Assembly: GCA_013076295.1 (NCBI GenBank)
Contig: RQOL01000923.1
Location: 1 to 64,000 of the forward strand
DNA from: Sanderia malayensis
Taxonomy: Eukaryota; Cnidaria; Scyphozoa; Semaeostomeae; Pelagiidae
DNA: 64,000 bases
Direction: 5' to 3'
The notes under the pieces were generated by a model. That model was not told where the DNA came from. It made no database searches and was given only the letters and a program-made list of their open reading frames with translations. The position numbers were made by a program, and so were the translations under genes. This document shows, one piece after another, positions 6,725-58,852 of this stretch (position 1 is the first letter of the stretch; every line of letters starts with the position of its first letter).

Positions 6725-6919
6725 TTATGCGTTTAGCTGAATATTTTCAGCTGGGGTGCCTTCAGCGTCCTCGCTGTTACGCGTGCGTCTTCTACGATGG
6801 CACCAAAGCACTATTGTAACAACAAAGACGATGAAGGCAACCGCTCCAACTATTGCTCCAATTATCTTTGCAGTGTCTGCCTGTTGTTTTGGCGTTTGTT
6901 TCCTTTGTCGTTTGCTTGT
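6725..6919 (-). CDS. exon encoding a single transmembrane helix and basic tail
   Basis: A minus-strand acceptor (gaagttgcag) begins a phase-0 frame with a Lys/Gln-rich juxtamembrane stretch, a hydrophobic helix IIGAIVGAVAFIVFVVTIVLW, then HRRRRTR stop-transfer charges and a short acidic tail ending in a stop. It reads as the membrane anchor and cytoplasmic tail of a type I receptor. It abuts, and overlaps in another frame, the Gag-like ORF. It may be the terminal exon of the TNFR-like gene whose remnants flank it, or a real Gag-TM fusion. Copy B has no counterpart. Confidence 0.45.
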   Translation of the reverse strand, partial: TSKRQRKQTPKQQADTAKIIGAIVGAVAFIVFVVTIVLWCHRRRRTRNSEDAEGTPAENIQLNA

Positions 6920-6925
6920 CTGCAA

Positions 6926-8092
6926 CTTCAGTGGCTAGAACCGAGGCTTGATTGTTCTTAGCAGGGCGTTTTCTTGCTCCAAATTTGTTGCTTCTCTCGC
7001 TCTCTGTTGTCATCGCGATGTTGATTTCACGTATCAAAACTTCGTCTGAAACGCGCGACATTTCCAGAAATGGGCGTATACGCGTACGTATTGCGTCATC
7101 GACTAAACCTGTTTCTACGGCATTGATAAAAACATTCTGAACTAAAGTAGTATCATAACGAATTTTTGATTCTTTTTCTTCACTTGCAAGCAAAATATGT
7201 TGCCTGAGTTTTAGAGCTCTCATCAAGAAATTTAGTGCGGTTTCATTAGGCTCCTGTACCACATTGGTTAATTCTTGGTATGCCTCTGTGGCAGACTTTT
7301 CGCAATAGTGACTGCGCAAAATTTGTCGCAATTCTTTCAAACTCAGATTTTTCATGCCCTCCAAATATGATCTTAAATGGAGTTGAGGTGAGATAGCATT
7401 TATCACAGCATCGACGATTTCTTTCTCAGGATAACTTTTTTCTATTGCACTGTCTATTTGTTTATTTAAACTTGTGAAAGACAGGCGGTTTTTCTCGTTT
7501 GAAATTACTCCGTGAATTTTTAGGTCTTTGAAACGAAAAACATTTTCAGCTAAGTTGGAAGTTGGGACCTTTGTTTCAGAAGTATAAACTTCCCTACCTT
7601 TTCTACTCGGTATGAGGGGTGATAAACTGCGAACTGGATCAGACATACGAGAACATGGAGGCTTGGTAAGCTTCTGAATTCGATCCTTAGCTTCTGAAAT
7701 CTTTTCCTCTTGCAACTGCAGCATTTTCAAGAAATCTTCCTGCATAATCGTATACTCCTGCTTCGCTTTCTCCAATTCTTCTGTATCAACTTCACCTTCA
7801 CTCGAGTCCTCATCTTCATCACTAGCCTCTCTCGATACTTCAAGGGTGGAGGTCCGCCTTTGAGAAATACCAACAGCTCATCCAAGGTCTTCATTATAGC
7901 CTGATCCTCCTCTGATTCACCTTGGCCGATCGTTGCGCAAATCCTCTCTAATTCTTCTCGTGTTTTGTTAATGATCTGCCTCTTCGTCCTGCCTGTATCT
8001 TCGATTTTTAACAATGCGGTAGCTTCTTTCAGTTTTCCATCAGTTGCACCGTAGAGTAAGCTTTCGATTGACAACTGTAGCTCCTCGGCCAT
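6926..8092 (-). pseudogene. retrotransposon Gag-like protein gene
   Basis: The minus-strand start at 8092 reads MAEELQLSIESLLYG; the middle has LRSYLEGMKNLSLKELRQIL and ETALNFLMRALKLRQHIL. This capsid-like pattern belongs to a Gag family widespread in corals and fish. A frameshift near 7840, after the PPPLK segment, separates the N-terminal part from the coiled-coil and capsid part. The frame then runs out through the transmembrane exon. No protease or reverse transcriptase follows, so this is an isolated or co-opted Gag. It is absent from copy B, where a coiled-coil exon (43330-43602) occupies the equivalent interval. Confidence 0.55.
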
Positions 8093-9441
8093 CTCTGAGA
8101 GCTCCCCCTTTACATCTTAAGCAAAACTTTTCCAGTCCAGACTGTTCCAAACTTTAAGTCGGTAATATAATAGGCCTGTTGAAGAGTAGCCGTTAAAATA
8201 ACAAACTACCCTCTGCTACCAAAATGTCAGGCCCTTCAGATCTCACAGAGACAAAGACATGAACTTAGGTGTGTTTATGCGGAAGCGTGTCTTCTTTCAT
8301 GTCACATATCTCAAAACATATATTAACCAAGTTTAACATACTATCATGTCGAACGTTTCTAACTAATCATCTCTAAAGTCGATACAAAGGTTGATGTTCC
8401 TCCCACTTGGACGGGGGTAATGAGCAACGGCACATGTGACTACGACAGTCCACTATTACTATTAGATTAAATACAAAAAAACATTGTTACGTAAAAACGT
8501 CATATCTGACACTGGTACACTTGGTGATAACACCATCAGTGCAGTTGGTACACGTGTAGCACTTTTTGGTGTCATTTGTGAACTGATTTTTCAAGCAAAT
8601 AAAATGTAAAAATACCTCATCAGACTATTATTACCAGAATTTAAGATCTGACAACAACTTTCTGACAACATAAGCTTGTTTTGCTAAATACCAATAGTGT
8701 TGTGGCGTAATCTGTTGCATCTTGTACCGTCTCTTTAGGGTCTTCGCTTTTCGATTCTTGTATGGACAATAGTTCATTGTTGTTATTTGTTTTACTTGCT
8801 TTCTCGATGTTCATGTTTTTAAGATCTCTGCGGTTTTTTCTTCGTTACTGGAAAACTTTTATAGAGATGCTTTTTGCAAATAACAACTGATGTTTATAGT
8901 TTACTGTGCTCCTAGACTTAATCAACTGCCAAAAGCATTTGATAAAATAATAGCTTGGACGTTTCTTCGTCAAACCTCCCTAACTCTTTCACTTTTTCAA
9001 AACGTTCTCCTCCAACAACTAGACAAGAAATGAAAAGACAGGAAAATTCAATTTAAGGTCGGTAATTCATCTATTGGGCAAAGTTGAAAGTTCAAAACCA
9101 GATAATTAGCTTGAATCTGAATGAATCTGGCGCATCGTGCACCATCTAAATGGAGTCTTCGCTCTCGGACCTTACATTGTTGATTTAAATAACAAAACAA
9201 CTGTGACACCCACCTGTGTCATCTATATTCCTCTTTCGGCAAACCGTAGTTTAGACAGTTTTACAAAATGCGGTAAGGACATTTTGTGGTCGCTGTTTAG
9301 GTTGCATGGCTTCGCTATACCTTTAGTTTGATCTGACTAATTAGTACACTTTTTTTAATAGCAACTAGACTTTGGTCCAGCCCTTAAAGTTGTTCAAAAT
9401 TTGGATATTTTAGCCCTCAAAGTTGCTTAAAAGTTGCTTAA
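8093..9441. other. non-coding mosaic left of the Kolobok element
   Basis: Contains a duplicate of the 5180-5390 segment (8600-8825), a TNFR-type exon piece (8515-8585) and its detached second half (about 9178-9255, minus strand). The AGTTGCTTAAA motif recurs next to the insertion site. No intact gene. Confidence 0.4.
8515..8585 (-). pseudogene. truncated TNFR-type cysteine-rich exon (A, second)
   Basis: The minus-strand frame NDTKKCYTCTNCTDG followed by ITKCT repeats the cysteine pattern of 5010-5145 but breaks before the DTVC segment, which is found in 43975-44075. Confidence 0.45.
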
Positions 9442-9502
9442 AGGAGACCTGCAACCTAAAACAAGTTGAGCTCTATTGATCAAATCTAATGCGCTGATCA
9501 CA
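9442..9502 (+). repeat. Kolobok left terminal inverted repeat
   Basis: Matches the reverse complement of 14282-14342 over about 60 bp with a few substitutions and a one-base gap; starts AGGAGACCTGCAACC. Confidence 0.9.
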
Positions 9503-10023
9503 ATATCAAGTTATTTTTTTCATGCGAGTAACCGTTTTCGAGTAATTGCCACTAAAGTGGCGTTTTTGTCCGCGGACAGTTTCAGCTCGTTTTGGGTGAT
9601 GACGTAACTGGTGAACAATCTTTTGGCCTAAATGGTGAAAGTCATAGAGAACTTGCGTTTTGTAATAGTTTCCATTATCACAAAAATAATATATTGATAC
9701 AAAAATGAATTGCTATTAATCTGTTTTCCTGTCAAGCCCACTCATTAACATTCATTATTCCAGAATGAATGGTGAATGTGTATTTTTTCTCTTCATGGCC
9801 GACACGAATGGCTGCGTCACCAAATTCCTTCATTGACCTTCACTTGACGCAAATAACAATAAAAAGACAAACTGCAACACTTTATTTGCAGAAATCATAG
9901 ATCCCTAAACCGTTTGAAATTTCATCTCCAGTAATACTCACAATGTTTATTATGGGGTTTTTCACACTCCTATATGAAATGGGCTATTGACGTAAACCTT
10001 TTCCGCTGCCGGTAAAGATGGGA

Positions 10024-10032
10024 GCATATAAA
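10024..10032 (+). promoter_or_regulatory. TATA-like box of the Kolobok transposase
   Basis: CATATAAAA lies about 60 bp upstream of the THAP-exon ATG at 10088 and inside the element, so transcription can start within the transposon. Confidence 0.45.
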
Positions 10033-10087
10033 ATCAACAGCACTTTTTCTTAGCACATATAGTTTTTTGTGTGCTAACGAAGCAAAC

Positions 10088-13000
10088 ATGGTTGGGTGTG
10101 CTGCGTATAACTGTTTCAACAACAGCAGTCGGCATAAAAAAGTTACATTCCACAGGTTTCCTAAAGATAATAACTTACGAAAGAAATGGATTACCAATTT
10201 AAAACTAACAAATTTTGTATGCAACGAAAATAAAAGACTTTGCAGCGACCATTTTCACCCGAATGCTATGAGACACGAAAATTTTTTATGGACTCACTTG
10301 GACTGACTACCGGCAACGAAAGATTAACATTAAAAGAAGGGGCCGTACCAACAATATTTGATTTGGAGTCCGAAGGGTCGCAAACAGATGAAAGGAAAAA
10401 GGAAATTCACAACATCGAAACCCAAGTTGGCTACGCTCAGTCCTAGAAAGTCACAGTTCGTAGCAGCAGATCAAGTCCAGTTAAAAGAAGGGCGTTTGAA
10501 AAAACGGCAAAAAATGAGGGTAAGTCCGCCAATGGCGCATTCCATCAATATTATGTATTGATCAATGTGGAAATTTGTCGTTTTATTACACTTCTTTATG
10601 ATTACTACTATTGAATACAGAATGTATAGATGTGCTATTGCATAACAGCGAATAATCCGATACTGTGTTTCTAGGTCTTGGAAAGTTATTGTCAGCAGGC
10701 AGAAAACTCGGGATTTTGATGAGATTACCAGTCTAGCATCAGAAACAACAGATGAAGAGTATACCGGTGTACTTGAGGACAGCTATCAACGTCGGAAGGC
10801 ACCCATTCAAAAAGCATCCAAACCGATGTGCCTACGCGCAGTCGATGTGAGTTGATACTTAGAAATGGTGTTCTGCTTATTTAATGATTATGCATCATTC
10901 CTCTGATTGACATGTTTTATGGCCCTTGTTGTAGACACACAAACATCTTTCCGCAAAAATGCAGTCGCTACACAATGCTGTTTGCCAAACCCATACACCT
11001 GCGACAGTTCCACCAATGCGAGCCAGAAGACGTGCAATTACAAGATACCATCTTGAAGATTGTGATTCTGCCACCACCAACCGGATTCAGGTTCTGATAC
11101 TGCAGAGGAAGAATGGCTACCAGACAGTGACGGCGAAATATCGGACGAGGTGCAAGATGCGGGAGACAAAAACCAAAGTACGCCCATGGAACGCAAATAT
11201 CTGGTGTTCAAATCATGTTTGCTACAGCTCTTCGCTATATGCAGACTTTGTTTGGCACCAGCATCCCAGACTGATTGCAAGGAAAATGGTACCCATGATA
11301 TCTGTGACAACAATGTGTATGAATGGTCACACCTATCTGTGGAATAGTCAACCAGAAAACAACCGCATGCCTTGGGGCAACTTCCTGGTAGCTGCATCAT
11401 GTCTTTTCTCAGGATCTCAGCCATCAAAAGTGCTGACATTTTTCAAGCACTTGAATTTGGCATGCATATCTGAAAGGCTGTATTCACTGGTCCAGTCATC
11501 AAACCTTGTGCCAAGTGTGTTTGAGTTGTGGAAAGAACATCAACTGGAAATTCTGTCAAAATATAAAAATGAAAAATTAACAATTGGTGGAGATGGTCGC
11601 AACGATACTCCTGGTCATACTGCAAAATATGGCTCGTATAGTGTAATGGACTTGGATAGCAATAAAATCTTGGATGTACAGTTGGTACAGGTAAGTACAT
11701 GTAAATAATATACCATGAATGTAAGTAATACACCATAAATCAGTAGTGATCACAAAAGATCTCACCTTACAACATTAAAGGCACACATAACTATTCCCTT
11801 TAGTAAAACTGTCTTCTTCTATTGTTCTACAGAGTACTGAATGTGGTGGTTCTGCCTATATGGAATTGGAGGGTTTCAAACGCTGCATTGGCACAATGGA
11901 ACGGCAGAACATTACCATTGGGACACTTGTATCAGATCGACACACCCAAATACGAAAGTACATGAGACAGAAGCATCCTGAAATAAAACACTACTTTGAT
12001 GTCTTCATGTTGCAAAAGGTAAAGGCAATCCCGCAAACTATGTTTTCCTGTTTCACAGCAACCTAAACACGCCTTTAAAAGTGTTGTTACAGTATTAATA
12101 CTATATTTACGTTTTCAGGAATTGGTAAGAAAGTTGAAAAAATAGGGAAAAAGAAAAAAAACTCTGCAGTGCTGGAATGGGTGCAAAGCATAAAAAATCA
12201 TTTTTACTGGTGTGCTGCTTCAAGCAAGGGAGACCCTGTTCTGATTGCAGAAAAATGGTACTCTCTCCTCAATCACATTGTAAACATCCATACCGGACAT
12301 GGGGAAAAATATCAATCTTGCCCACATGAAAAAATTGATAGAAATTGGCTTTCACCAGGTGAGATAGTTCTTGTGGAGCTTGCAAAACCTTATCAGCCAA
12401 CATTGCTTCCAAACCTCATGTCACTTTCATGAAATGATTACTTTATATTTGCCATTCTAGGGAGCAAAGGATATAAAGAATTAAAAGACAAATTATTGAA
12501 ACCAAGGCTCATAAATGACATCAAAAAGTTATCACCGTTGAAGCAAACAAGTGCCTTGGAATCATACCACAATATTGTCATTCGATTCGCTCCCAAACAT
12601 ACACATTTCTTTTATTTGCCAATGAAGGCCAGGTAAGCAAAAATAACTCTGGTACTGTATATGCAATGCACATTATCCATTGCCCATTTTTTAATCAACC
12701 ATAACCATGTTTTTAGATTGTTACTGGCATCTATGCACTTCAATGAAAACTCTGGACGAAAGCAGGCAAAAACTAAAGAAGGGAAGGAAAAATGGAAAAT
12801 AAATTACAGGAAATATAAAACAGAAGGTTTTGCACAAGCAGTGACAACAAAGACAACATATGGTGAGTAGTGACAAGAAATGATAAAAAATTGCTTTTTC
12901 TCGTTACTATTGAATTACATAACATCAAACAACGAGTACATGCCATAAATCTATATTTGCAGGTTACGTATCCAAATTAATGGAAAAAGCAATGGAAAAA

Positions 13001-13246
13001 AGAATGCAACAGTGCACTCACACTCATGCAAGAGCCAATGCGCAAACTTTACAAAATGCAGCACCAAATTTCTTGTCAGCTACAAAGGAAAAATTAGACA
13101 AAAATGTAGTGATTGAGAAACACAAAAGCAGATTTTCAAAAACGGTCACACATTTAGAGAACATATCAGGAAACAAGGCTCAGCAAGAATCCATTAGGAG
13201 CAAAAAAAGAAAAATCCAAGTAAGTACCTCTTTGTTCAGTAATTGA
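10088..13246 (+). pseudogene. Kolobok transposase, THAP + DDE, multi-exon
   Basis: Exons by splice sites and homology: 10088-10519, 10675-10846, 10935-11690, 11833-12018, 12119-12358, 12461-12632, 12717-12862, 12963-13246. Exon 1 encodes a THAP zinc finger (MVGCAAYNC... CSDHF), which binds the TIRs in this family. Later exons give the catalytic core: GGDGRNDTPGHTAKYGSY (first Asp region), VSDRHTQIRKYM (second Asp), NHFYWCAASS, and SALESYHNIVIRFAPK (Glu region). The start is the only ATG fitting the THAP consensus. Frame breaks: a one-base deletion near 10250 inside THAP, another break near 10440, and a one-base insertion near 11300. The rest is intact, which points to recent inactivation. The nuclear transposase would cut at TTAA. 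Confidence 0.85.
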
Positions 13247-14037
13247 TTTCAGGGTAGCGAAATCCGGTGTACTGTTCAGCAGGAAGACGGACCTTATTCT
13301 TGCTACAACACATGCAGGCAAAACTTGGCGCTGATGTCTTCCCAAGTAGTGCCAAATCCACCTGACAAACTGTCTGTAGCTAATATATCTGTACAGTCTG
13401 GGCAGACACAATGCATAAACTGTGGTTAATTTAAAAGATAGATCAATTCTTGGAATAATAATTACAATTTATGTTAATTTCACAGTGATTGATAAACGTA
13501 CATACTCGTGAGGTAAATGGTCATCAACATACTGCTCATCTTCGATATACTGGTAAATGGCACAAAGAATGACATCAGTATTTAAACAAACTTGTTGAAA
13601 GCCATCAACAAGCGTTATACAGCTGCATCCTGCTTGCCTGGTTTTAGCTGCGACAAAATCCACCTCCAAACAGCAAATGCTCTCCCTCCCGGACGGCATG
13701 ACTTGGCAATGGTTGCATTGGCACCTGGAAGACAAAAGGCCTTGCTTTTATTGCTTACCAAATTATCTTTAATTTGTGTATAATCTACGGAGAAATAATA
13801 AATATGACCTTACCAGTCAGTATTTCCTATTCTGTTTTGGTTTATGTCTTCATCACCACTTGCAACTCGTGCAGAACCTTCAGAATCCGAACTTGGTGAT
13901 GACGGTGATGATGACGGTGATGATGGCCTAGGCACTCGTTGGCTTGCTCGAGGCAGTGGTTCAAACTGAAATGGCTCCACTACACCTTCCTCAGTATCAG
14001 CAAAACCATAATCAAAATCACCGTCAATATGATCCAT
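13236..14037 (-). CDS. P2X7 C-terminal (ballast) domain protein, Kolobok cargo
   Basis: Three minus-strand exons: 14037-13814, 13724-13506, 13388-13236, with donors GTAAGG and GTATGT, and acceptors cttccag and tgtacag that join in phase. Exon 1 starts at ATG and is acidic and Ser/Pro-rich, ending GNTDW. Exon 2 opens CQCNHCQVMPSGRESICCLE, the Cys cluster of the P2X7 C-terminal domain, then GFQQVCLNTDVILCAIYQY. Exon 3 has YISYRQFVRWIWHYLGRH and VLPACVVARIRSVF, and the domain's usual PAEQYTGF ending is visible one base out of frame (a 1-bp deletion near 13285), so this copy is slightly damaged. In vertebrate P2X7 this domain is cytoplasmic and binds zinc and guanine nucleotide. Free-standing versions are known from invertebrates with unknown function. 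There is no channel domain here. It lies wholly inside the transposon and ends within about 10 bp of the transposase stop. Confidence 0.85.
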
Positions 14038-14281
14038 AATTTTAAAATATTTAAACCGTTATTTATACAAGTAATTGCCGTACAATTTTGGCTAATGCAA
14101 ACTCAACACACTCCCCACTCAATAAAAATCATTGTTCACCAGTTACGTCATAATCCTCCCGCGAGCAAGCACGTCTTTGCCCGTCCTTTAAACATAATGG
14201 CGGATTTTAGCCAAATTTTCGCACTTTAACAGCTTATATCTCGAAAACAAAGCTTGACTTTAAAAAATGAATAGCGGATTC

Positions 14282-14342
14282 GTAATCAGCGCATTAGAAT
14301 TGATCAAAAGAGCTCAATTTGTTTTTAGGTTGCAGGTCTCCT
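14282..14342 (-). repeat. Kolobok right terminal inverted repeat
   Basis: Ends GGTCTCCT immediately before TTAA. It pairs with 9442-9502. Confidence 0.9.
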
Positions 14343-15301
14343 TTAAAATTGTTTGTACCTATAACAGCCTCTCCTGTCCCCAGGGTACCACTCCTAAGTT
14401 CGTGGGTCAAAATCTTCAACTGTAATGCCTACAGCACAAGACTTAAGAGACAGTATAAGTGTAAACATGCTACTCAAGAACTTCAACAGCACAATGAACA
14501 TTCGTGCCCAGTTTTAGCATTTTAAAATAAATGACGTTTAAATTCTTAGTTGCTAACAGTAATTCAATTGAGCCCTCGAGTTGCTCAATCTTAGGGTCAA
14601 TCCAGCCCTAGTTGCTTGTTGAGCGGTTGCTTATTAAAAAGAAGTGTATTAAAGCTGTGGACAATCTTTTCCTGTTAACGGGTCAATGAATTGAAGATCT
14701 TTTGGTAAGCAGCTGTGCAATTTTGTCTTGTCACTTGCACCGGTGACGAACCCCAACAACAACAACACGTATGTTTCTATTGTTATTTATGTACACAATT
14801 TTCCTAATAATTACCATTAGTATAATAGCAGTCTTGATAATAGAGCTTCTTGTAGTACAGGAAATATTTGCAGACTTCTATAAACATGGACGTTATCACG
14901 AATATTAGACTATAACAGACTTCTTCAATAACACTAATAAATACATAGTAAAATACTGGTATAACAAGGGCAGACAATATGAAGTTATCACGTTTACTGC
15001 AACATCTAACCTGAGGAATAACAATGTACAACGAGTTTCTTGTAATACAGGAAATATTTGCAGACTTCCGGAAACATTGACGTCATCACGAATATTGGAA
15101 TGTTACACACTTGGAGTAAAAAACGAACGGAACAGTTGGCTATTAACAATAGGTAATGCGAATTGAGTTGTAAAATTAAAACAATTGTACTTTATTATAG
15201 TTACGAATAACCAAAAAACAACACTAAAGGATTCAATTGGGCAATCGCCTTCCTCATTAAAACAAGTAATCATAAACAATACAAAAAATGTGCAAGAGTT
15301 T
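14343..15301. other. non-coding, multi-copy segment
   Basis: 14347-14590 recurs in copy B and again at 55221-56225. 14760-15300 recurs at 21480-24300, 46260-46800 and 51840-52400 as the shared 3' flank of all four Crypton-like elements. No gene seen. Confidence 0.5.
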
Positions 15302-16689
15302 CTAATTGTGTACCTGATTATGAATTACCCTGCGACTTGTTCGCAAACCATAAACTTGTGTTGTTTCGTTGAAGACAATGTCGATAGGATGTATTAGGCT
15401 ATCCCAACTCTCCACCCAAGTGTCTTCACCAACAGTCATGACAAAGCAATTTTTTTCCAGGTTCTTTAAATGGGCGAGTGTCGCTGTTTTCAGTTCTCTA
15501 TCCAGGAAGATCACCTTACCGAGGATTATATCTGGATGGGTGTATGTGCTGGATTCCGTCACCATCGCTACAATTTGATATAGAAATGGTGCGTCTTTTA
15601 CATTTTTTGTTATTTCCAACCCAATGGAACTTGCGGCTTCTGTTGACAGATGTTCTACTGCGGGTACAGTATTGTTCTTCGGCTGTGTGTAATACCGCAG
15701 CCTTTGCATCCTGGGTGTGTGACGCATCAATCTAGCCAGAGAATCTGTTATATCCTTGTTTGATCTATTGCCATTCAGTACAAAGTTAACGCAAGCCTTT
15801 CTCATGTTTGTAGTTGTTAGTCGGAGGCCGGAAAATTCCGCGAAAGCTGTACACATATATTGGGAGAAGGCAGCTGAACTCGAAAAGGGCGAACCATCTT
15901 TCTGTACAAACAAAAACTCGTGAGTATTGCCACTTAGCAATCTTTGCCTGTGCTTGTCAACATACCTAGTTATGTTACTGACCAAGTATCCAATGTTGGT
16001 AACGTCTATTACCTGCGAGCCATAGGTGGAGCTGGTTTTATATTTGCGAAAAGTAAATGTTACTGTCCCATCACTCTCCCCATACATAGGTAGTGATTCT
16101 CTTCCATTGTCATATGTGTACTCTTTCTTCCAGAAACGGCACCAGCCCTGAAAAAGTGGGGAGGACGGGGGAAAATTTTTAGGAACACGCCCATTTTTGT
16201 GGAAGCCACGCCCATTAGGAAAATTACACTTTCCTGTATAGTATGGTATATTGTACTGTATAGGGTTTGTATATTCAAAAAGTCTTTTTCATTTCCATGT
16301 ATATTGGGGAGGACATGTCCTCCACAGTCCTCCCCGTGGTGCCGCCTCTGCAGCAATCCCATAGTATCAATGTAACGAAATCTAGATTTCTACCTGGGTT
16401 GCAGGTTGTAAATATTAGCAATAGCAAAAAGTTCATAAACAGGCGTGCTTCCTCTTGGGGTAAACCAGCAAAGTTCTCAATGGCGCTTTTCATTTTTTTC
16501 ACAATGATTAACACCTCTGTCCAATAAAATAATTCGTCTTTTGGCTTTATTGTGACATTCGTCTTTCTCTTTCGTACTCCGTTTGTGCCTGACGCTGCAA
16601 GTTTTTCAATTGCACCAGACATTTCACATTGCCATAATCGTTAGATGTTTTCACACCTTTGTGTAAATATTTTTCTGCATTGCCATACC
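15302..16689 (-). pseudogene. Crypton-like tyrosine recombinase, form I (A)
   Basis: The minus strand begins after an acceptor (ttccaacag) at 16689. Box I Arg is in CNPGRNLDFVTLILWD. After an interruption (16140-16360) the second part reads TTNMRKACVNF (box II Arg) and LARLMRHTPRMQRLRYY, with His and Tyr nine residues apart as in the GH...Y box of tyrosine recombinases. About 130 further residues follow, to a stop. Such enzymes integrate circular intermediates by site-specific recombination. In copy A a 4-bp deletion near 16550 breaks the N-terminal frame, which stays open in copy B; B in turn lost one base near 48005. Neither is intact. Confidence 0.6.
16140..16360. mobile_element. short insertion inside the recombinase gene
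   Basis: A block bounded by GTGGGGAGGAC-type and GGGGAGGAC/GTCCTCCCC motifs interrupts the recombinase between box I and box II. It is present at 47650-47870 too, so it inserted before the duplication. Likely a MITE or other short element; ends not resolved. Confidence 0.4.
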
Positions 16690-21768: not shown

Positions 21769-24027
21769 GCGTAATTCGGGGCAAGATGAGACACATAAGG
21801 AAAGAATGTTATTTTTCTCAAGTCAAACACTTTTAACAAAAGTAAAACTGATGCAAAAGAATCAAATATGTGTAACTAGTAAGATTAACACAAATTAGTG
21901 AAGTTTTACATAATGCGTGGAAAAAATTGTGGTTAAGGTTATCTGGTCAAATGTCTCCTCTTGCCCGAGTGTGGGGGCAAGATGAGACAACCTTAAAAAT
22001 ACTTTGTTTAGTCAATAGAAATGATTCAATTTCTTTCAGGCATGATAAATTGTTTTATTAACTTGAAAAAACACAAGAATATTTTAAAATTTAAGACAAC
22101 ACCAATTCTTATTGGAACACACTATGTTTGCAACAGAAAAAAAGTTTTTGAAAAATGTTAAATTCAGTCAGTCAAGTTTTAAAAACACTATGCATTTTAA
22201 CTAGGCAATGCAAAAGTCACACTTGAAGTTATTGAATTTAATGAGCAACAGTTTTCATGGTACCAAACAGAACATTTAGTACACTGGATCCAGTCTTCGC
22301 CAGGAAGAGACTCCAGCCAGCCACCATCGCAAACTAAACACTTGTAGTCAGAGCTTGCTTTCTTTTTCTGCTTTCCTTTTTCTTGTTTTTCTGCACCCTT
22401 CTTCAATGCATTTAGTTTCCTTTTATCACCCTTAACTTGCTTCTGTTTGCTTTTCTTTTCTGCTTCTTGCAGACTCCTTTTGTAGGGAGAGCGTGTTATT
22501 ATTTGGGACTCCTCACTCCGCTTTTTTCCCTGCTTTGCCACAATTTTAGGAACCGGCAAAATCTTTTCGAATGAGAACTCAAGCTCAGGATCATATGTAC
22601 TTTCAGCTGATGTTATTACAAATGAATCTAGTGATTCATTGGATGGGCCAGGAGTTGGTTCCATTGTTGTAACTTGGTGTTCATTCTGGGTATCTTCTAT
22701 TGGTTGATCAGATGGAACAGAAGTGGGCTCCATTGTGGCAGCTCGATCTTCCGTAGAAGCAGCTTCTCTTGGGTCCTGCAGGTATTCTGCATCAGGAACG
22801 ATGCCAGAGTTGAATGGGTGAATACCTGTTGTCTTGAACCCTGATACTGCATTTTCAACTGTTGCAGATTTGAGATAGGCCTCACTGAAGAGTTCCCCCA
22901 GCTTATCGACTGTAATTCTTCTGGCAGGGTGTTTACGCAGCCATGAGTTGCAAGCAACATTGAATCCAGACTTCAAACCCTTCAAAAAGCTTCGGTCCAA
23001 AGGCTGAAGCTTGTGTGAGGTATGTGGCGGCAATGAGAGTAAAGAAAGACCATTTTCTTTAGCATAATCAATAAGCTCGATGTTTTTGGTGTGCGATTTG
23101 TGGCCATTCAAAATCAACAACACTTTTGAATCTTTGCTGCATTTTGTATGCTTTAAAAAATGCTTTACGAACTTAAAGAAAAGATCTGTGTCAACCCAGC
23201 CACTGTCGGAAACACCACCAATTGTCCCAGGTGGGGCACGCTCAATCAACTCAGGATTCATGCGCTTCCTCTTGAATATCATGAGTGGAGGTACAAAACT
23301 ACCAGTGGCACTCATTGCACAAATAATTGTTGTGGTTTGCCCTCTCTCACCACTGATAACAGATGCCACAACCCGCTTTCCTTTCGGTGCTATTACCTTC
23401 ACAGGCTTGTGCACACACGTTATTCCTGTTTCATCGCAGTTAAATATCTGATGTGGCTCAAAGTTGTGTGTCTCTAATAACTCTTCCAAATTTTTGAAAT
23501 AGTTCTGAACGGAAATTTTATTCAGACCAAACACTCGATTTAGCGCAATTGCCTCTGGTTTCCTCAAAGAGAGTGTTTTCTGCCTTTTCAGAAATCCATC
23601 AACAAAGTCTCTTCCAGCCATTTTCTTTTCTTTGTTGAAAGGGTGGTCCAGTTTGTTCTGTTCTGCAAACTCAAAGACAAGTCTCCGAATTTCATTTATG
23701 GAAAGACCATAAAAGGATGAATCCATTTGTTATGAAGGGAAGCAACACCTTTGACAAACGATGTTAAAATTATGCCAGAATTATGCTAGATTTCAGATTA
23801 TGCTAGATTTTATGCTAAATGACGATTTTCGGTCAAAATTATGCTAAAAGCATAATATTATGCTAGGTCTGGTCACACTGTCAAAAACACAAAATCAGCA
23901 AGGGGAAATGAGAAAACACGTGTTTTAATATGATTTAGAGGCCGAGGTATCCTAAAAGAGGCTGGAGAATAGGTTTATGGGAAAGTGTCTCATCTTGCCC
24001 GACGTCGCATCTCGCCCCGAATTACGC
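21769..24027 (-). mobile_element. Tigger/pogo-like DNA transposon
   Basis: 2259 bp with TIR GCGTAATTCGGGGC...GCCCCGAATTACGC and TA target duplications at 21767-21768 and 24028-24029. The unoccupied site is preserved in copy B (TA at 52141-52142). It inserted into the 3' flank of the form II Crypton-like element. It encodes one transposase on the minus strand. Confidence 0.92.
22197..23726 (-). CDS. pogo/Tigger transposase with C-terminal PHD-like finger
   Basis: 509 codons. Residues ~1-70 form a CENP-B-type helix-turn-helix (KKMAGRDFVDGFLKR). The DDE_1 core follows, with DETGI (Asp98), LILNGHKSH and LQPLDRSF (Asp244). The second catalytic Asp is Asn207 (normally LLDGHxSH), a single G-to-A-type codon change that should abolish cleavage. 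Residues ~310-465 are a low-complexity, then Lys-rich, linker, and ~465-495 a PHD-like zinc finger (CLVCDGG...CTKCSVWYHENC). The usual N-terminal Psq-type helix-turn-helix is missing: only 300 bp remain to the TIR, and these hold ATTATGCTAG repeats. An otherwise intact reading frame with a dead active site suggests recent loss, or selection for DNA binding. Confidence 0.9.
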   Translation of the reverse strand: MDSSFYGLSINEIRRLVFEFAEQNKLDHPFNKEKKMAGRDFVDGFLKRQKTLSLRKPEAIALNRVFGLNKISVQNYFKNLEELLETHNFEPHQIFNCDETGITCVHKPVKVIAPKGKRVVASVISGERGQTTTIICAMSATGSFVPPLMIFKRKRMNPELIERAPPGTIGGVSDSGWVDTDLFFKFVKHFLKHTKCSKDSKVLLILNGHKSHTKNIELIDYAKENGLSLLSLPPHTSHKLQPLDRSFLKGLKSGFNVACNSWLRKHPARRITVDKLGELFSEAYLKSATVENAVSGFKTTGIHPFNSGIVPDAEYLQDPREAASTEDRAATMEPTSVPSDQPIEDTQNEHQVTTMEPTPGPSNESLDSFVITSAESTYDPELEFSFEKILPVPKIVAKQGKKRSEESQIITRSPYKRSLQEAEKKSKQKQVKGDKRKLNALKKGAEKQEKGKQKKKASSDYKCLVCDGGWLESLPGEDWIQCTKCSVWYHENCCSLNSITSSVTFALPS

Positions 24028-24282
24028 TACAGGAAATATTTGCAGACTTCTATAAACATCGACGTTATCACTAATATTAGAATGTTACACACTTGGAGCA
24101 AAAAGCGAACGGAACAATTGGCCATTAACTATAGGTAATGCGAATTGAGCTATACAATTAAAACAATTGTATCTTATTTCAGTTACGAATAACCTGAAAA
24201 CAACACTAAAGGATTTAATTGGGCAATCGCCTTCCTTATCAAACCAAGTAATCATAAACAATTAAAAAATTTGCAAGAGTTT

Positions 24283-25153
24283 CTATTTATCTACCTGATT
24301 ATGAATTACCCTGCGACTTGTTCGCAAACCATAAACTTGCGTTGTTTCGTTGAAGACAATGTCGATAGGATGTATTAGGCTATCCCAACTCTCCACCCAA
24401 GTGTCTTCACCAACAGTCATGACAAAGCAATTTTTGTCCAGGTTCTTTAAATGGGCGAGTGTCGCTGTATTCAGTTCTCTATCCAGGAAGATCACCTTAC
24501 CGATGATTATATCTGGATGGGTGTATGTGCTGGATTCCGTCACCATCGCTACAATTGGATATAGAAATGGTAACTTCTGCTATGCAATCAGTACTTGGCT
24601 GCACCACTGTGTCTGCTTCGTTAACGTCTGTATTTACGACATCATAGTTGTTTTCCGTCACTGCTCCTCCAGCATATACAACATCTTCTTCTTGTAGGCA
24701 CTCTGTACTTGGCTGTGCTCTCGTTGGTGATTCGTGAAATTCGGAATTTACCACGTCATGGATGTTTTCTGTTACTGCTACTCCAGCACTCGTAAGCTCC
24801 CATTCTGCTGAAAAAGCCATGCTTTGCTCCATTGCTGTTGCTGCTTCTTTATCATCTGAATCACTCACAATCTCTTGTTGTGCTGTTGACTGACGATACT
24901 TTATTAGGAATTCATTAGCACTTTTGGTATCAATTACGTAGCAGCCACCACGTTGAATCCCAGTTCTCGTTTTGACAATTTCCTTTACATCGTTAATTGC
25001 CAAACTGGGTTTAACTTGCAAACGTTTCAGGCGGGTTTTAAATGTTTCTTTGTTGACATTTGGGAAAAACGTTAGTCGGAATACCTCAACTGCAACAACA
25101 TCGTAATTTTCCATGAAGAGTGAAATATTTTTCAGTAAATGATCAGCCATACC
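24283..25153 (-). pseudogene. Crypton-like element, form II (A)
   Basis: Starts after the same acceptor context as form I (CAG/GGTATGG) but continues into a different sequence, MADHLLKNIS..., with FRLTFFPNVNKETFKTRLKRL and an acidic Ser/Thr-rich region. It joins, at ACCATTTCTATATC, the C-terminal tail shared with form I but one base out of frame. The recombinase core is absent. Best read as a deletion derivative retaining the N-terminal region. Copy B equivalent is at 52460-53261. Confidence 0.5.
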
Positions 25154-25405
25154 CTGTTACAAAATATAAACGCATTTGAGAACACCAATATCTTTAGATG
25201 TGTATTTTAAATAAACGTAGCATCACATATCCCGCGTATACAAGAACAAGTAAATGAGCATATGGGCGTTTTCTAAAAATAGGCGTTGTCCCGAGATTTT
25301 TTTCATACTTGCTAACAGCTTCCCTCTTACCCTCTAACAAGTTTTCGAGCCCATTTGTAAAATGATGTGCTATAAAAAAAGTTATATAACCCTAGCAAAG
25401 TATTT

Positions 25406-25429
25406 AAACCCTAACCCTAACCCTAACCC
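25406..25429. repeat. interstitial telomeric repeat (A)
   Basis: Three CCCTAA units plus a partial one, directly after the TATTTAAACCC end common to all four Crypton-like copies. Homology between duplication copies stops here. Confidence 0.85.
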
Positions 25430-25600
25430 AGATTGAACCTATTTCAAAATGTTTGAACTTAGTTCAAAATGGTTGAACTTAGTTCGAAATTGTTGAACTT
25501 AGTTCAAAATGGTTGAACCTAGTGCAACATGATTGAACCCAGTTCAAAATCGTTGAACCTAGTTCAATATGGTTGAACCTAGTTCAACATGTCTTTATGT
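25430..25600. repeat. GTTGAACYTAGTTCAA minisatellite
   Basis: About seven units of 20-22 bp, each a short palindrome (TTGAAC...GTTCAA). Related units occur at 16965, 58450-58500 and 58770-58850. Confidence 0.8.
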
Positions 25601-26207
25601 GAATTTTAATCCTTTCCGCGATCTCGGCGACCCTCAACTATCATATGGAAACAATGCTTCAAAATAACAGAGAATGTTGACGGTTGCAAACATGTAGAAA
25701 CGAAAGACCGAGTACATTATAAATGTTCCTTTTTGCTCGACCTGTTCTGAAATTTTTCACAATGGACGTGCATTCAGTAAGAATGGAGAAAAATAAACGC
25801 TAATGCAGTTTCGTGGAGACTACAAAGTCATTTTTATGTGACCAAAAATGAAATCCACGGATATTTGTCAATGGTGGACACGCTTTGTTGTTCGTTTTAC
25901 AGACAGATGGATTTTTGTTGCTGGTATGAAATGATGTTATATATTATTAGTACTCATTTTATGCCGTGCAGAAAACCCCCTGGTTGATGTTTTTAGGGAA
26001 GCAAGGACTTGAAATAAGAAACTTTTAGGGCCTGAATTCAAAATGTGGTATCTTACATCCGCGAACCTACAGTCTATATACTCCAGGTCCACCATATAGA
26101 AAGAAATTTGAAGTTAGGTTTGGTAAAGCTATTAGAATGACCCCATCTTCAAACGCTTAAGAATACGGAACTTTGACAAACTTTACAAACTTGAAGGAGC
26201 AAAGTTC
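25601..26207. other. non-coding before LINE remnant
   Basis: No domain found. Probably decayed LINE 3' region near its end. Confidence 0.3.
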
Positions 26208-26471
26208 ATGTTTCAAATTAACAAAGAGGCCAAATACACTACTCTAGGCCATGGATTTCTAAAACCAAAAACTCTCCATAGTTACAATACAAGGCAATCA
26301 TTAAACCTTGGCTCTTCCCTACAAGCAATATCAAACAACTTTAAAAGACATTTTCTTACATTTGATGGTATTAAACTTTGGAACTCTTTGCCACTAAAAT
26401 TGAAAAAAGCCAACAACAAAATATCTTTCAGAAATAAAATGAAACATTACCTTTTAGAAACCCTGACCTGA
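26208..26471 (+). pseudogene. non-LTR retrotransposon (CR1/L2-like) ORF2 C-terminus
   Basis: LHSYNTRQSLNL, then KRHFLTFDGIKLWNSLP and FRNKMKHYLL match the conserved end of CR1/L2/Jockey-type reverse-transcriptase proteins. The reverse transcriptase itself is not present, as in a 5'-truncated copy. Confidence 0.65.
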
Positions 26472-27084
26472 TTGAAGTTGATGAAACTAATTGCACATGC
26501 TATAAACCTAATCTTCCCACTTTGGTTTTTTTTGTAGTTTTCTTTATTCATTTTCATTCTCTTATTCATTTTCTTTTTATTCTTTTACTTCAGTGTTATT
26601 AGCATTCTGTTATCTTATTGTTACTATTATTCAAAATGAAACAAAATAAATTGTAAACGTTAATGCACGTCAATTGGGCACATGGCTTTGATAGCTCGAT
26701 CCTGACTTTTTTCATGTGTCCATCAGCTTACTTGGTATCATTATATGGTTGCTCGTTTTTAATGTTCTTTTTTTAATTTTCGATCAGTACATGAACTTGA
26801 ACAACTATCTTAAATGACGTACCTTGTAATTAATGAATTTGCTGAGAAACATTTATGATGAAGCACAAAGTTTTTTCAAAATATTTATTCAAAAATATTT
26901 CATATAACAGATTTCTTTGCACATAGAAATTCCTGAAGGACCAGTGTAAACTGGGCAAGCTAAAACTATAACTTTATTTACATACCTTATCGTTAATCTT
27001 TGAATCTTTGCTTTTGTACAGTAGAGCCAAAAACCAATGCAACAAACACTGACAGTTTTTCTGCTCGGACAATACACACGTACT
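26472..27084. other. AT-rich non-coding
   Basis: Likely LINE 3' UTR and flank; no gene. Confidence 0.35.
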
Positions 27085-28330
27085 GATTGAACAATTGAAT
27101 GTGCTTACATTTTGGTGACATATGTATATACTGTAAAAGCTCTAAAATTAGCATTATTCGTAACGTAACTGAACGTCAGTAACAGGAAATGTAAAAGGGT
27201 AGGGTTTTCTTTTCATTGTTATAAACTTTGAGATGGTGGTGGGAATACATGATTCATGTGATGATTATTCTTTTTTCAGTATTCCTTGCATGCTGGGGAA
27301 ACCCGACGGCATGCAGGGAATCTTTTTCCGAAACACAAAACAATGACTTTTATATTTTGAAGTTGACATAGTAAATTGATTGTCGTAAGAGTGTAATTTC
27401 CAGACTGTCATACCTTTGGCAAGGTTCCTATTACCCTTGAACATTTTCAAAATACAGTGAAGGCATATTTGGGAAATATTTTGAAGTTGACATAGTAAGT
27501 TGATTGTCACTTGCTTTCTAGAATTGTTCAAGATACATCAGCAATTATTTATAATGACAAGTGAAGCTCCCACAGAGCCTGGTGTGCCAGAATGAACAAC
27601 TCAGTACTGCATGCGAGCGATCAGCAGCTTTATTACAGGTAAGAGTGTAATTTCCAGACTGTCATACCTTTGGCAAGGTTCCTATTACCCTTGAACATTT
27701 TCAAAATACAGTGAAGGCTTATTTGGGAAGTATTTTGAAGTTTACATAGTAAACTGATTGTCACTTGCTTTCTAGAATTGTTCAAGATACATCAGCATTT
27801 ATTTATAATGACAAGTGAAGTTTTCATAGAGCCTGGTGTGGCAGAATAAACAACTCAGTACTGCATGCGAGCAGTCAGCAGCATTATTGCAGGTAAGAGT
27901 GTAATTTCCAGACTGTCATACTTTTGGCAAGGTTCCTATTACCCTTGATCATTATCAAAATACAGTGACGGCATATTTTGGAAATATTCTGAAGTTGACA
28001 TAGTAACGTCCCTTGCTTTCTAGAATTGTTCAAGATACATCAGCAATTCCTATAAAGGCCCCAAGAGGCACAGCAGATTATGATCATCAGTTGTTATGTG
28101 CAGAAAGCTAATTGATTGATGTCTATGTCTAACACACAAACACAAGAGAACCATAAAACAATGTATGATTTAAATGTTTCATTCTCAAGAAAAAACATTT
28201 TCATTACATGTAAATTATTTAACAATGAATTTGATAACTGCTTAAGTTGTGTTTTAGTGTGAAGCATTAAACATTCATTTGTTTTTTTTCCAGATCCTAA
28301 CAAAATTTTTAAAATCAATCAAGCAGAAGC
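27085..28330 (+). repeat. third partial copy (C) of the array region
   Basis: 27085-27350 matches 17085-17330; 27380-28045 carries about three exon-like units with donors near 27385, 27637 and 27890; 28046-28330 matches the region right of the array, ending at AAGCAGAAGCCATGATCATG. The TGAA hairpin, the MITE and the first exon are absent, so it is an internally deleted copy. Confidence 0.8.
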
Positions 28331-28611
28331 CATGATCATGATTATATTTTGGATAATTATAGCATGTCATACAAATATGATTATTATTGTTGTCAAGGAA
28401 TATTATAACTATGTTATAATTTTAACAATTGTAATTATAAACTTTTACCATGATTATATAACAGTCTCTTCACTTAAAATAAAAACATTGACTTCATTGC
28501 AGAGTCCATATATCTGACTACACCAGCCATCCTTGCACAGGGCCAAGACCCGGTTGGACTTAGGGCCGGGTCACACATAGCACACTTGTACTGCATACTG
28601 CTGCTGAAAGT

Positions 28612-28690
28612 GCCTACCTGTATGGTACTTGTATGGTACTTGACCAGCCATACAAACCCGACCGTTTATGCACTTTTCTACATTCAGGTT
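28612..28690 (-). pseudogene. Cys-rich exon remnant (C)
   Basis: Minus strand GRVCMAGQVPY, matching 42111-42240, with one Cys changed to Gly. Confidence 0.35.
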
Positions 28691-29025
28691 AGTATTCTAG
28701 AAAAAAAGCAATGCGGAGTGGTTATAATCTTTAAGACGGAATCGATATTGAAGAAAGAGACATGAGTTCATCTGATAATAACGAGAGAGAGAGTCTTTAA
28801 AGAGCACAGTTGAGAGTCTTTGCAATAATCAACTTGTCATTTGAGAGTTTGTTGATTAAAGGAGTATTTTCATGGGTTAATCTGCAAAAGATCTATGACT
28901 GAAAATGGCAAGCCTTTTACAAATTCTAGAGAAAATTATATCGTTTCAGACCTGCAATAAGAAAAAATTGTATTCTCATCAACAACTTGAACTGCTTTTG
29001 AAATTCACTGTAAACTGAATCTTCT

Positions 29026-29757
29026 TCACCTGCTTGTTGATTTTCTAGCCCTAGGACATAGGTTACAAAAGCGGTCGTAATCTGCCAATGTTCCTTGAGC
29101 AAAAGACATGTGTCCTGTATCCGTACCGACTCCAGTAGATATTAGTGTCCAGCCTAATCTGGTATGTTCACCCAACGGCTCTCCGGATTTACCAACTTTC
29201 GCTTTTGTATCTGTCTTGATCTTTGCATACTCTGATGCTCCCAAGATTAAGTGAACAGGAAGCTCTGGTTTTCGATCAACATCATCCATCGTTAATCCCT
29301 GCAAGTGAGGGTATTTCTTCAAAACATCTTGATACCTGGGATTCTTTACAGAAAGCAAAACCCCTCTATCAACATTGCTTGCATCAATTTCTAGCATGAA
29401 GTCCCCTCTGAGGTTGTTTACTTGCACATTGTATATCTCAATCTGCTTGTTCACTGTGCTTAACATCATGTCTATTTGTCTGCTTTGCTTCATCACCGGT
29501 CTTTTTCCAATAACATTCACCAGTTTGTTTGAAATGTACGAGCTGCCAGCTCCTGTGTCTAACAAGGCCCTGCATTTTACGCCATTTACACTGACAATAA
29601 CTGTGGGATATATTACTCCTTGTTCTCCGGTTGCCAATAAAACTTGATCTGGTTTCCTGTCACAAACTGATGTGTGATGTCTTGCACTGCAAACTTGACA
29701 ACCGCTTTTAACTCTGCATTCCCCAGCTCTGTGATTACTGACTGAGCGAAATCCCAT
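29026..29757 (-). pseudogene. BEL/Pao retrotransposon, zinc-knuckle end and protease
   Basis: The minus-strand frame has NHRAGECR...CQVCSARHHTSVC (Gag/Pol-junction zinc motifs), then the aspartic-protease active site ALLDTGAGSSYIS, then LILGASEYAKIKT and LGWTLIS, typical of the BEL/Pao Pol N-terminus. Reverse transcriptase, RNase H and integrase are missing. The 5' neighbour of this segment lies next to it in the opposite orientation (29757-29965), so the fragment is internally inverted and inactive. Confidence 0.75.
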
Positions 29758-29965
29758 GTCCCTAGACGACAAGGGGGCAAGCACAAATATAAGGGAGATT
29801 AGCCAGGGTATGCAAAAGCGTGGAATTTCTTTCAAGCAAAACAAGAATGGAAGAGGAGGCCATGTGTATATTGTGAGGGGGAGGACCACAAAACACTTGA
29901 TTGTAATAAAGTGACAGGCTTAAGCCAAAGGAGAGAGTTTCTCAACCAAAAGAGACTTTCCTTTT
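29757..29965 (+). pseudogene. BEL/Pao Gag zinc-knuckle segment, inverted relative to protease
   Basis: The plus-strand frame RRPCVYCEGEDHKTLDC then LSQRREFLNQKRLSF is the BEL/Pao zinc knuckle that normally lies just upstream of the minus-strand segment. Confidence 0.7.
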
Positions 29966-30145
29966 GAGGATATATTCCTACTTGATTTAAGTAGCTTTCC
30001 AACGTTTACCAAAACAGTTCAAAATATAAGAAATTTTGGATATGATGTCACATGACCACACCCTGCCACACTCACCGCTGATTCGTTTGGTAACAACCAG
30101 ATTCGGAAAGAGCATGCAATTTTACATAGGGCTAAAGGTTACGTT

Positions 30146-30225
30146 CTAAGACGTTTGATCTCTGCGGAGGAGTTCACAATCAAATCCTCATTTCGAAACT
30201 CCTCCGCAGAGGTCAAACGTCTTAG
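30146..30225. repeat. 29-bp-arm hairpin
   Basis: Arms 30146-30174 and 30197-30225 (CTAAGACGTTTGA.. and its complement) pair almost perfectly with a 22-base loop. Confidence 0.85.
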
Positions 30226-31479
30226 ACCGGAACTTTGAACCCTCATATCTCCCCCACCCACCCCAAGATCGCTGTTTACCATCGCGTTTCTCAATGACAG
30301 ACACAACGGCTGCACAAAAATCATAGTCTGGTAAATTCCGCACAAAAGTGGTACCTACCTCCACCACAGCCTTGTCTATATGTTTTCTGCAAAGACTTTT
30401 GCATGCACGTTATGACAAATTTTCTTCCTTAAGCTATAAGAAAGAGTTGACATCGCTTCATATAAAAAGCATAATTTTGTTTTCCTTAATTTTAACAACT
30501 ACCTTAATGACGTATAGCTTGTAATTAATCAAGTGGCTAAAAAATGTTTCACTTCATTCATTTCATTTCATTTGATTCGAGTGAGACATTTCAGAGGGCT
30601 TCAAATTTGCTAATACATGCTTATTAGTCTGGTTTATTGCCCTGCATCAAAGCGGGGCCTCATAGTGTACCCCGCAGGAGATATAGAGAATGTGTGTAAA
30701 TTTTTCCACATTTTTCGTCATGTTGTCAGACAGGTAAAACAGGTTTGAAGCGACTTGGCACCGAGTTGTGTTGTTTGCCGTGGTGTTTGCATGCTGTGAA
30801 AGAAGGAGACGCAGCAATTCTGCTTTCTGGTTGTTGGAATCAGTAGTTGAAAAAGTTTATTTTCTTTGACGAAAAAGACAAGGGAACATTTTGCCTCCTG
30901 TGGGCGATTGCAAAGGGTTAGTAAGGCCTAGTGGCCTTCTATTCTACCTAGGCTGGGCTTTGTGAAAAGAAATAGGTCGTTGTATCTCTACTTACAAGTT
31001 TGATTGTCTGGTAGGCTATACATTTGATACAAAATCGATTTTATATATTTTTAAATAAGAGAGCAATAGATGAATTATTTTTCCAGATTTATTTGCATTC
31101 AATGGCAGTGAAGTGATCAGTTGCCATTTCGATGCTTCGGTTTTATTGCACTGCACTATTTATAAACTGAGCCTGTTGGTGCATTACATTTGTGCAATTT
31201 CATTATTTTGTAGATTTTTGCTACTGCTAGTTTTAGCATTGACTCTTCAGACATAAAGAACAGTTCCAATACTTTTATTTACCACGCAGAGGTCAAAGTG
31301 GCAAATTACCTTCTTCTTTGTGGTTGTTTTAACGATTCTGTCGTCACATGAAATGCAGCGGAAATGTCTCGAGCAACAAAGGAAATTCAGAGGCGCTGAC
31401 ATCTGGTTTCAAACTTCTGTCGCTTTTCTGGCTGATTTTGCAACGAGTGTGATGAGAAACACAACCATCTTTTGTGAAT
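30226..31479. other. putative upstream region of the 31480 gene
   Basis: No repeats recognised and no coding domain. May contain the promoter or 5' UTR of the following gene, but no core element is distinct. Confidence 0.3.
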
Positions 31480-44075: not shown

Positions 44076-44792
44076 CTTGTATAGTCAAAATAAGATAAAA
44101 ATTGAGTCTGGGAAAGGAGAACAACTTTGAAATAAATTTTTCACAAAAAGAAGAAACTTAACTTGTGAATTTTTTGCATAAAATTTTGTTCTGTTGTCAC
44201 GACTTTCATATTAAAAAGACTGATGCTAAATGCATTTATCATTCAGTATATCTTTCTTCGTAATTTAGACCCCCGCTAATTGGCACCTCCCGGCAGTTAA
44301 TTTTCAACAAAAAATCCAACCCCCCCCGCTAATTGGGACCCCCCGCGGCACTTAGGCACCTAAGAGTATTTACCACCACCCTGATGTTGATGTGTAGACA
44401 GTTTTACAAAATGCGGTAAGGACATTTCGTGGTCGCTGTTTAGGTTGCATGGCTTCGCTATACCTTTAGTTTTATCTGACTATTAGTACACTTTTTTTAA
44501 TAAGCAACTAGACTTTGGTCCAGCCCTTAAAGTTGCTTGAAATTTTGGATATTTTAGCCCTGAAAGTTGCCTAAAAGTTGCTTAAAAGTTGCTTAAAAGT
44601 TGCTTAAAATTGTTTGTACCTATAACAGCCTCTCCTGTCCCCAGGGTACCACTCCTAAGTTCGTGGGTCAAAATCATCAACTGTAATGCCTACAGCACAA
44701 GACTTAAGAGACAGTATAAGTGTAAACATGTTACTCAAGAACTTCAACAGCACAATGAACATTCGTGCCCAGTTTTAGCATTTTAAAATAAA
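44076..44792. other. non-coding, Kolobok target region (B)
   Basis: CCCCGCTAATTGG-type repeats at 44268-44370 and four to five AGTTGCTTAAA units just before the unoccupied TTAA at 44604-44607. Confidence 0.5.
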
Positions 44793-58447: not shown

Positions 58448-58852
58448 TTCCATATCGTTGAACCTAGTTCAATATGGTTGAACCTAATTCACCATGGATT
58501 ACCAAATTTGCGCAACAAATAACGATCATTGTTTAATTCTAATATGTTAAACGCCATACTTCAAGGGAAAAACAAAAATATAATTTGACTCACTCTCTTT
58601 TGTTGTATTGAAATTTACTTCTCTTGTCCAAGTACTCCATGCATACTTTGCATCCTAACAGCTTTGTAGGCAGCGCCAACCATATTAGTCTTTCTACAAA
58701 ATTAAATAATGTCTCATGTCTCAGCTCACATAAGGAAGTTCATCTTACGAAACTCTTTTCATTCGTTTTGGAACCAAGTTCAAATTGTTCAACATAGTTC
58801 AAATTGTGGAACCTAGTTCAAAATGTTGAACCTAGTTCAAATCCTAAATTAA
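58448..58852. repeat. GTTGAAC/GTTCAA unit clusters
   Basis: Short runs at 58452-58500 and 58770-58850 of the minisatellite seen at 25430-25600, with unique sequence between. Confidence 0.6.

Follow-up and report, generated by a model that had tools for sequence, protein, structure and literature searches.

A Kolobok transposon of Sanderia malayensis with a convergent KolX gene related to the P2X7 ballast domain

The element and its two genes

We analyzed 64,000 nucleotides of DNA from the scyphozoan Sanderia malayensis (assembly GCA_013076295.1, contig RQOL01000923.1, forward strand, positions 1 to 64,000; this whole stretch is called the window), in which a Kolobok transposon spans positions 9438-14346, with TTAA on both sides. 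The element carries a THAP-domain DDE transposase gene on the plus strand and, convergent with it, a gene for KolX, a protein homologous to the cytoplasmic ballast of the purinoceptor P2X7 (Table 1). The pairing of a Kolobok transposase with KolX and the inference drawn from it for P2X7 were already published in 2022 (Kojima and Bao, PMC9587614; this and the other papers are cited here from parts of their text), and the headline is accordingly not new. What is added here is a genome-wide count, the fixed convergent order of the two genes, and their correlated divergence.

The repeat search revealed inverted ends that are perfect over 24 nucleotides (9438-9461 and 14323-14346) and a second pair of inverted arms of 44 nucleotides with 91% identity. 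The termini read AGGAG...CTCCT and agree with the 5'-RR...YY-3' ends named for Kolobok elements, including AGGRR in the Xenopus T2 elements (PMC9587614 and PMC6004289), and the TTAA target-site duplication is likewise that of Kolobok. No long terminal direct repeat was found in the repeat search of positions 9000-14900, and no RNA family matched the window at the gathering score. The window itself is a tandem segmental duplication, with main aligned blocks about 93-97% identical, and its second segment (copy B) reads through the insertion point at a short TTGCTTAAAAG repeat with the element absent. This empty site holds several TTAA units, among which the target unit is ambiguous.

On the plus strand, the THAP domain matched Pfam PF05485 with 54.7 bits (open reading frame [ORF] 10016-10303, profile positions 1-64 of 87), and an AVPTIF box lies in ORF 10234-10446; the two form a single open frame in the copy on contig C624, a combination expected of Kolobok. 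The candidate catalytic residues D/D/E, assigned by motif, fall in GGDGRND, SDRH, and ALESYHN, which were placed by alignment with diverged loci and agree with a Kolobok transposase. Between the second D and the E, the C/DxxH motif reads DVFH, open in C624 and frame-broken in the window copy. A pattern of the form H...H...C.H, recognized by eye in the exon at 12118-12358 and in the diverged loci, probably represents the H2CH motif named for Kolobok transposases in PMC6004289. None of the transposase families in Pfam matched the transposase exons of the element.

The predicted KolX gene comprises three antisense exons, whose introns of 89 and 108 nucleotides are both GT-AG and join in phase, the first exon junction lying inside a DWCQCNHC motif. 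The intact KolX of the C624 copy has 201 residues, and its spliced sequence matched the Pfam family P2RX7_C (PF20478) with 65.1 bits (E = 1e-17, against a cut-off of 23.5 bits) over profile positions 66-192 of 192, as well as the P2X7 chains in the PDB at an E-value of 1e-8; exon 3 of the window copy scored 21.8 bits by itself, below the cut-off. The C624 protein also aligns over 136 residues, at 35% identity, with a Xenopus laevis protein of 191 residues that bears the name "P2X purinoceptor 7-like". One protein in the protein database matched the window-type KolX at E <= 0.001, a result that carries little information. In ten KolX proteins compared, the WC.C and CC cysteines of the putative zinc site never vary and the third and PxC cysteines hardly do, and these cysteines align to those of the P2X7 chains. 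A structural model is consistent with the ballast fold. With the P2X7 ballast (PMC7016195), KolX shares the cysteine clusters, the YR..W core, arginines equivalent to rat R546 and R578, and a terminal YTGFRYP; it differs from rat P2X7 in having no channel part and in keeping, of the residues that contact GDP, only the equivalents of R546 and R578, those at H547, R574, and K583 being replaced. This loss does not exclude KolX from the ballast family, because PMC7016195 reports the same beyond deuterostomes.

By these sequence features, including a second protein with a ballast domain, the element is a Kolobok, probably of the Kol0 kind. It shares with Kol0 as described in PMC9587614 (type element Kolobok-1_XT) the TTAA duplication, RR/YY ends, a DDD/E transposase, and a ballast-type KolX, and its own KolX has three exons and lies in convergent order; the strand of KolX and a count of pairings are not stated in the available parts of that paper. 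KolobokP (PMC9587614) resembles the present element in that a second gene follows its transposase on the opposite strand, but that gene encodes a His-Me finger nuclease, and KolobokP bears long terminal direct repeats.

The C624 copy is the only full-length copy at 99% identity, and both of its flanks equal those of the window (99.4% over 7.9 kb), so it represents the same insertion and was rejected as an independent second copy. In C624, KolX and the last open transposase exon share 11 nucleotides where their ends meet; a GTAAGT precedes the end of that exon, and a further splice is possible. In the window, frame breaks interrupt the THAP exon and the DxxH stretch of the transposase, both open in C624, and exon 3 of KolX, from which reading continues antisense into the transposase exon. 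Alignment of the two elements by MAFFT gave 22 mismatches and 28 gap runs, of which 21 are losses in the window and 7 are losses in C624; 27 of the gap runs are of one base and 23 adjoin an identical base. BLAST counted 8 mismatches with 33 gap openings. Across the two 1.5-kb flanks the only differences are 4 gap bases, while 10 gap openings stand against 74 mismatches in the more diverged C381/C568 pair and 10 against 166 in the duplication pair of the window. Since the differences between the window and C624 are rich in gaps, mostly of single bases, the frame breaks resemble consensus errors, and they are probably that rather than decay.

Much of what a first-pass annotation had read from this DNA was therefore borne out: the exact boundaries, by the flanking TTAA and the perfect 24-nucleotide ends; the empty site, by the continuity of copy B through the short repeat; and the three-exon antisense P2X7-domain gene with clean splice phases, by the splice reading and the Pfam and PDB matches of the C624 protein. 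The profile searches that it proposed for THAP and P2RX7_C gave the scores above. Its claim that the two genes end within about 10 bp of each other is right by the overlap in C624. It had missed the frame breaks of the window copy and the identity of the C624 insertion with that of the window.

Convergent pairing and correlated divergence across the genome

Genome matches over the ballast part of KolX were clustered into 83 places, of which 64 had E <= 1e-3 and 19 had values from there up to 1e-2, with E-values entered as orders of magnitude; from 145 KolX rows, 43 that covered only or mainly the N-terminal exon (two of them reaching residues 103 and 112) and a few from places already counted were omitted. 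A Kolobok transposase lay within 4 kb of KolX at 40 of the 83 places (29/64 strong and 11/19 weak matches), as counted from the transposase matches listed, part of 160. Random placement would give 0.34 of 83. The transposase was convergent with KolX in all 40, including the 11 with weak, strongly diverged KolX matches, and five of them also had a divergent transposase, either of a tandem neighbor on C843 or another transposase at C45. The 40 places are spread over 21 contigs, and some of them are tandem or duplicate copies; therefore, they are not 40 independent events. Both genes were seen by direct alignment in 13 of 13 paired places examined, which had been chosen as having both matched. 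On C843, positions of about 23000-37200 form a tandem array of units of about 2.6 kb, each with a transposase exon and a KolX piece.

The distance matrices of KolX and the transposase were correlated, with an r of 0.84 for 13 loci and 0.72 for the 11 loci left after two near-identical ones were removed, and neither value was reached in any of 20,000 permutations, which treat the loci as exchangeable. The 13 loci were taken from 14 aligned ones, a locus with a short KolX being dropped and L053, L055, and L059 not entered, and the alignments are short.

Many of the unpaired places cover one exon only, often the cysteine exon, and one on C568 is parted by a later insert; they may represent fragments, short derivatives, or domesticated genes. 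Among the 43 omitted N-terminal rows, 14 adjoin a counted place and 29 represent further places, at least some of which are short element derivatives. Short derivatives of about 1.9 kb with both ends were seen at L044 (C726:2225470-2227383) and about 10 similar places, which retain the region of the THAP exon and the greater part of KolX exon 1 and have neither catalytic exons nor ballast. A single P2X receptor locus was found in the genome, with no KolX match near it; thus, the ballast domain occurs here beside a Kolobok transposase or without a located partner, and not beside the channel.

A DNA search for copies of the element, in which 40 of 54 candidates were scored, yielded no full-length copy without KolX; of the few copies that retain both ends, none having a full transposase is without it. 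The related insertions C381/C568 and C303/C5 keep parts of all three KolX exons, some with stops or indels. With identities of 97.7% over 4.5 kb for C381/C568 and 100% over the 4.7 kb compared for C303/C5, the members of each pair are probably duplicates or haplotypes. The C688 copy stops before the KolX part, the C758 copy is internally deleted, and L046 (C735) has neither KolX nor catalytic pieces. A diverged family, represented by C45, shows the same convergent order at 43-77% identity in the open transposase pieces compared.

The ratio of nonsynonymous to synonymous substitution (dN/dS) for KolX was 0.35-0.69 within the family and 0.05-0.18 against C45 (32-57 codons), and that for the transposase was 0.12-1.2 among close copies and 0.06-0.14 against C45, the synonymous sites being near saturation in the comparisons with C45. 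These ratios indicate past purifying selection on KolX.

KolX as a proposed partner of the transposase

The two genes keep a fixed order, descend in a correlated way, and are under constraint, which indicates that KolX is a working part of the element; the best reading is of a standing association with the transposase and not of occasional cargo. The organized two-gene element of the first-pass annotation, as opposed to a chance insertion, is supported by the 40 convergent pairs and by the related insertions with KolX. Two checks that it proposed were also favorable: C381/C568 and C303/C5 hold KolX pieces, and dN/dS of KolX lies below 1 within the family. Its suggestion that P2X7 domains spread as transposon cargo is supported with two corrections. 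A transposon origin fits the findings, but the idea is already published, and "cargo" understates the case for a gene that is found with several diverged Kolobok lineages, always in the same orientation.

We consider it fairly probable that KolX directly takes part in transposition. The element encodes a TTAA-targeting THAP DDE transposase on one strand and the accessory KolX convergently, and the C-terminal half of KolX is homologous to the zinc-bound fold of the P2X7 cytoplasmic ballast. In the mechanism we propose, KolX would join the transposase in the nucleus and be required for transposition to be efficient, in all likelihood by helping the transposase to assemble on or find the transposon ends, with the zinc clusters as a structural core. 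It would in this respect act like the Myb-like second protein of Harbinger, a two-gene DNA transposon in which that protein is thought to assist the transposase; both Harbinger proteins are unrelated to those of Kolobok, and the likeness is one of analogy only. The same module would have entered vertebrate P2X7 by a later gene fusion, as has been proposed in print. More tentatively, KolX might be a co-evolving factor that transposition strictly requires and that binds the ends or the transposase, strengthened in some lineages by a nine-cysteine CxC-type module fused N-terminal to the ballast. If so, the P2X7 ballast would once have served in a transposition complex and since been retired from it, and its puzzling sites for zinc and nucleotide could be explained in this way. 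Because the pairing is fixed, a transposition function of KolX is directly testable.

Several points weigh against this reading. At 43 of the 83 KolX places no transposase match lies within 4 kb, and the same is true of all 29 further N-terminal places (0/29), with which pairing falls to 40/112; the transposase candidates scored were the best 130 of 261. The dN/dS values of near copies derive from 8-35 changes per pair in partly decayed copies, the fold was modeled with modest quality and for a protein of another type than that of the window, and the Kol0 label is given from sequence features. We found no experiment on KolX in the literature and infer its role in transposition.

Less likely, in our judgment, KolX counters host silencing or regulates expression of the element, for example through an antisense 3' overlap, and does not itself act in the transposition reaction. 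The protein could be active in any part of the cell, and given the 11-nucleotide convergent coding overlap in C624, convergent transcripts could form double-stranded RNA. However, the matched exons elsewhere lie about 540 bp to 3.1 kb apart, so that close overlap of coding ends may not be general, and the protein-level constraint and conserved cysteine-rich fold favor a role of the protein. We give less credence still to KolX as passive cargo, a host ballast gene caught by one Kolobok and without a role in transposition. The unpaired places would suit such a history, accessory genes differ among Kolobok lineages (PMC9587614), and the evidence is drawn from sequence only; against it stand the convergent order at every paired place, strongly diverged ones included, the correlated divergence, and selection against amino-acid change. 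P2X7-domain genes are described as ordinary genes in many invertebrates (PMC7016195), but a single-copy host gene into which, or next to which, the transposon had inserted is extremely improbable here, since KolX lies within the terminal inverted repeats and has dozens of related matches in the genome, and interruption is ruled out by the empty site in copy B. The resemblance of a short cysteine-rich ORF to P2X7 by chance, which the subthreshold score of the window exon 3 might suggest, is ruled out by the score of the full C624 protein and its two splice phases in register.

Kojima and Bao (PMC9587614) reported that KolX of the Kol0 lineage matches P2X7 residues 476-595 and has the fold of the cytoplasmic ballast, and they proposed that P2X7 arose by fusion with KolX and that zebrafish Nanor is probably KolX derived. 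Theirs was the only paper that proved relevant in our literature searches on KolX and on P2X7 with Kolobok, and further searches listed no other on this link, as judged by title or abstract. Rump et al. (2020) described free-standing P2X7 domains, with no link to transposons in the available parts of that work (PMC7016195), and a Clytia paper (PMC10620158) notes, in the parts available, a likeness of the P2X7 tail to unrelated gene families and nothing beyond that. The present findings lend further weight to the published derivation of the P2X7 tail from a transposon and support, from another genome, the view that invertebrate "P2X7-like" genes can be transposon genes; purinoceptor labels in gene lists may therefore mislead.

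Feature coordinates, a CxC-type module, and neighboring sequences

Table 1. Features of the Kolobok element, its empty site, and the CxC-type module. Positions are those of the window unless a locus is named.
Feature	Position	Strand	Basis
Left TTAA target-site duplication	9438..9441	.	Sequence ends and copy B empty site
Left terminal inverted repeat, starting AGGAG	9442..9501	+	Repeat search, copy comparison
Transposase N-terminal exon, THAP and AVPTIF; internal frame break here, open in C624	10088..10446	+	PF05485, ORFs
Exon with putative first catalytic Asp, GGDGRND	11355..11692	+	ORFs, alignment to diverged copies
Exon with putative second catalytic Asp (SDRH) and DxxH; DxxH frame-broken here, open in C624	11833..12017	+	ORFs
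Exon with H2CH zinc-finger-like region	12118..12358	+	ORFs, alignment
Exon with putative catalytic Glu, ALESYHN	12466..12633	+	ORFs, alignment
Last two recognized transposase exons (about 12717-12861 and 12962-13246)	12717..13246	+	ORFs, alignment
KolX exon 3, YRQFVRW..LPAC core; frame break near end here, intact in C624	13236..13397	-	Low end set from C624
KolX exon 2, putative zinc-site cysteine clusters, starting inside DWCQCNHC	13506..13724	-	Splice reading, PF20478
KolX exon 1, acidic/Ser-rich N terminus	13814..14037	-	Splice reading
Right terminal inverted repeat	14282..14342	-	Repeat search, copy comparison
Right TTAA target-site duplication	14343..14346	.	Sequence ends, repeat search
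Empty insertion site, duplicated copy B	44586..44606	.	Comparison of duplicated segments
CxC-type module	L002:869-1222	+	Cysteine spacing
CxC-type module	L002:330-608	+	Cysteine spacing
CxC-type module	L049:6090-6317	-	Cysteine spacing

In elements of the L002/L003/L004 type, a nine-cysteine module of CxC-type spacing was observed upstream of KolX on the same strand. Modules with this spacing bind DNA in tesmin-like proteins. Pfam gave no tesmin/LIN54 call for the module and a phmmer search of the PDB with L002:869-1222 no match; its label therefore reflects cysteine spacing alone. The module and the ballast occur together in one protein of the acorn worm Ptychodera flava (P0051), and a public gene model (P0021), 99% identical to the KolX of L003, joins part of the module to the ballast.

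Elsewhere in the window, long ORFs at 6792-7877, 15302-16288, 46944-47795, 22197-23729, and 29026-29919, all on the minus strand, resemble other mobile-element proteins by eye, the types seen among them being gag-like, recombinase-like, pogo-type DDE with a PHD finger, and retroviral-type protease. Positions 58852-63907 form a tandem repeat with a unit of about 445 bp.

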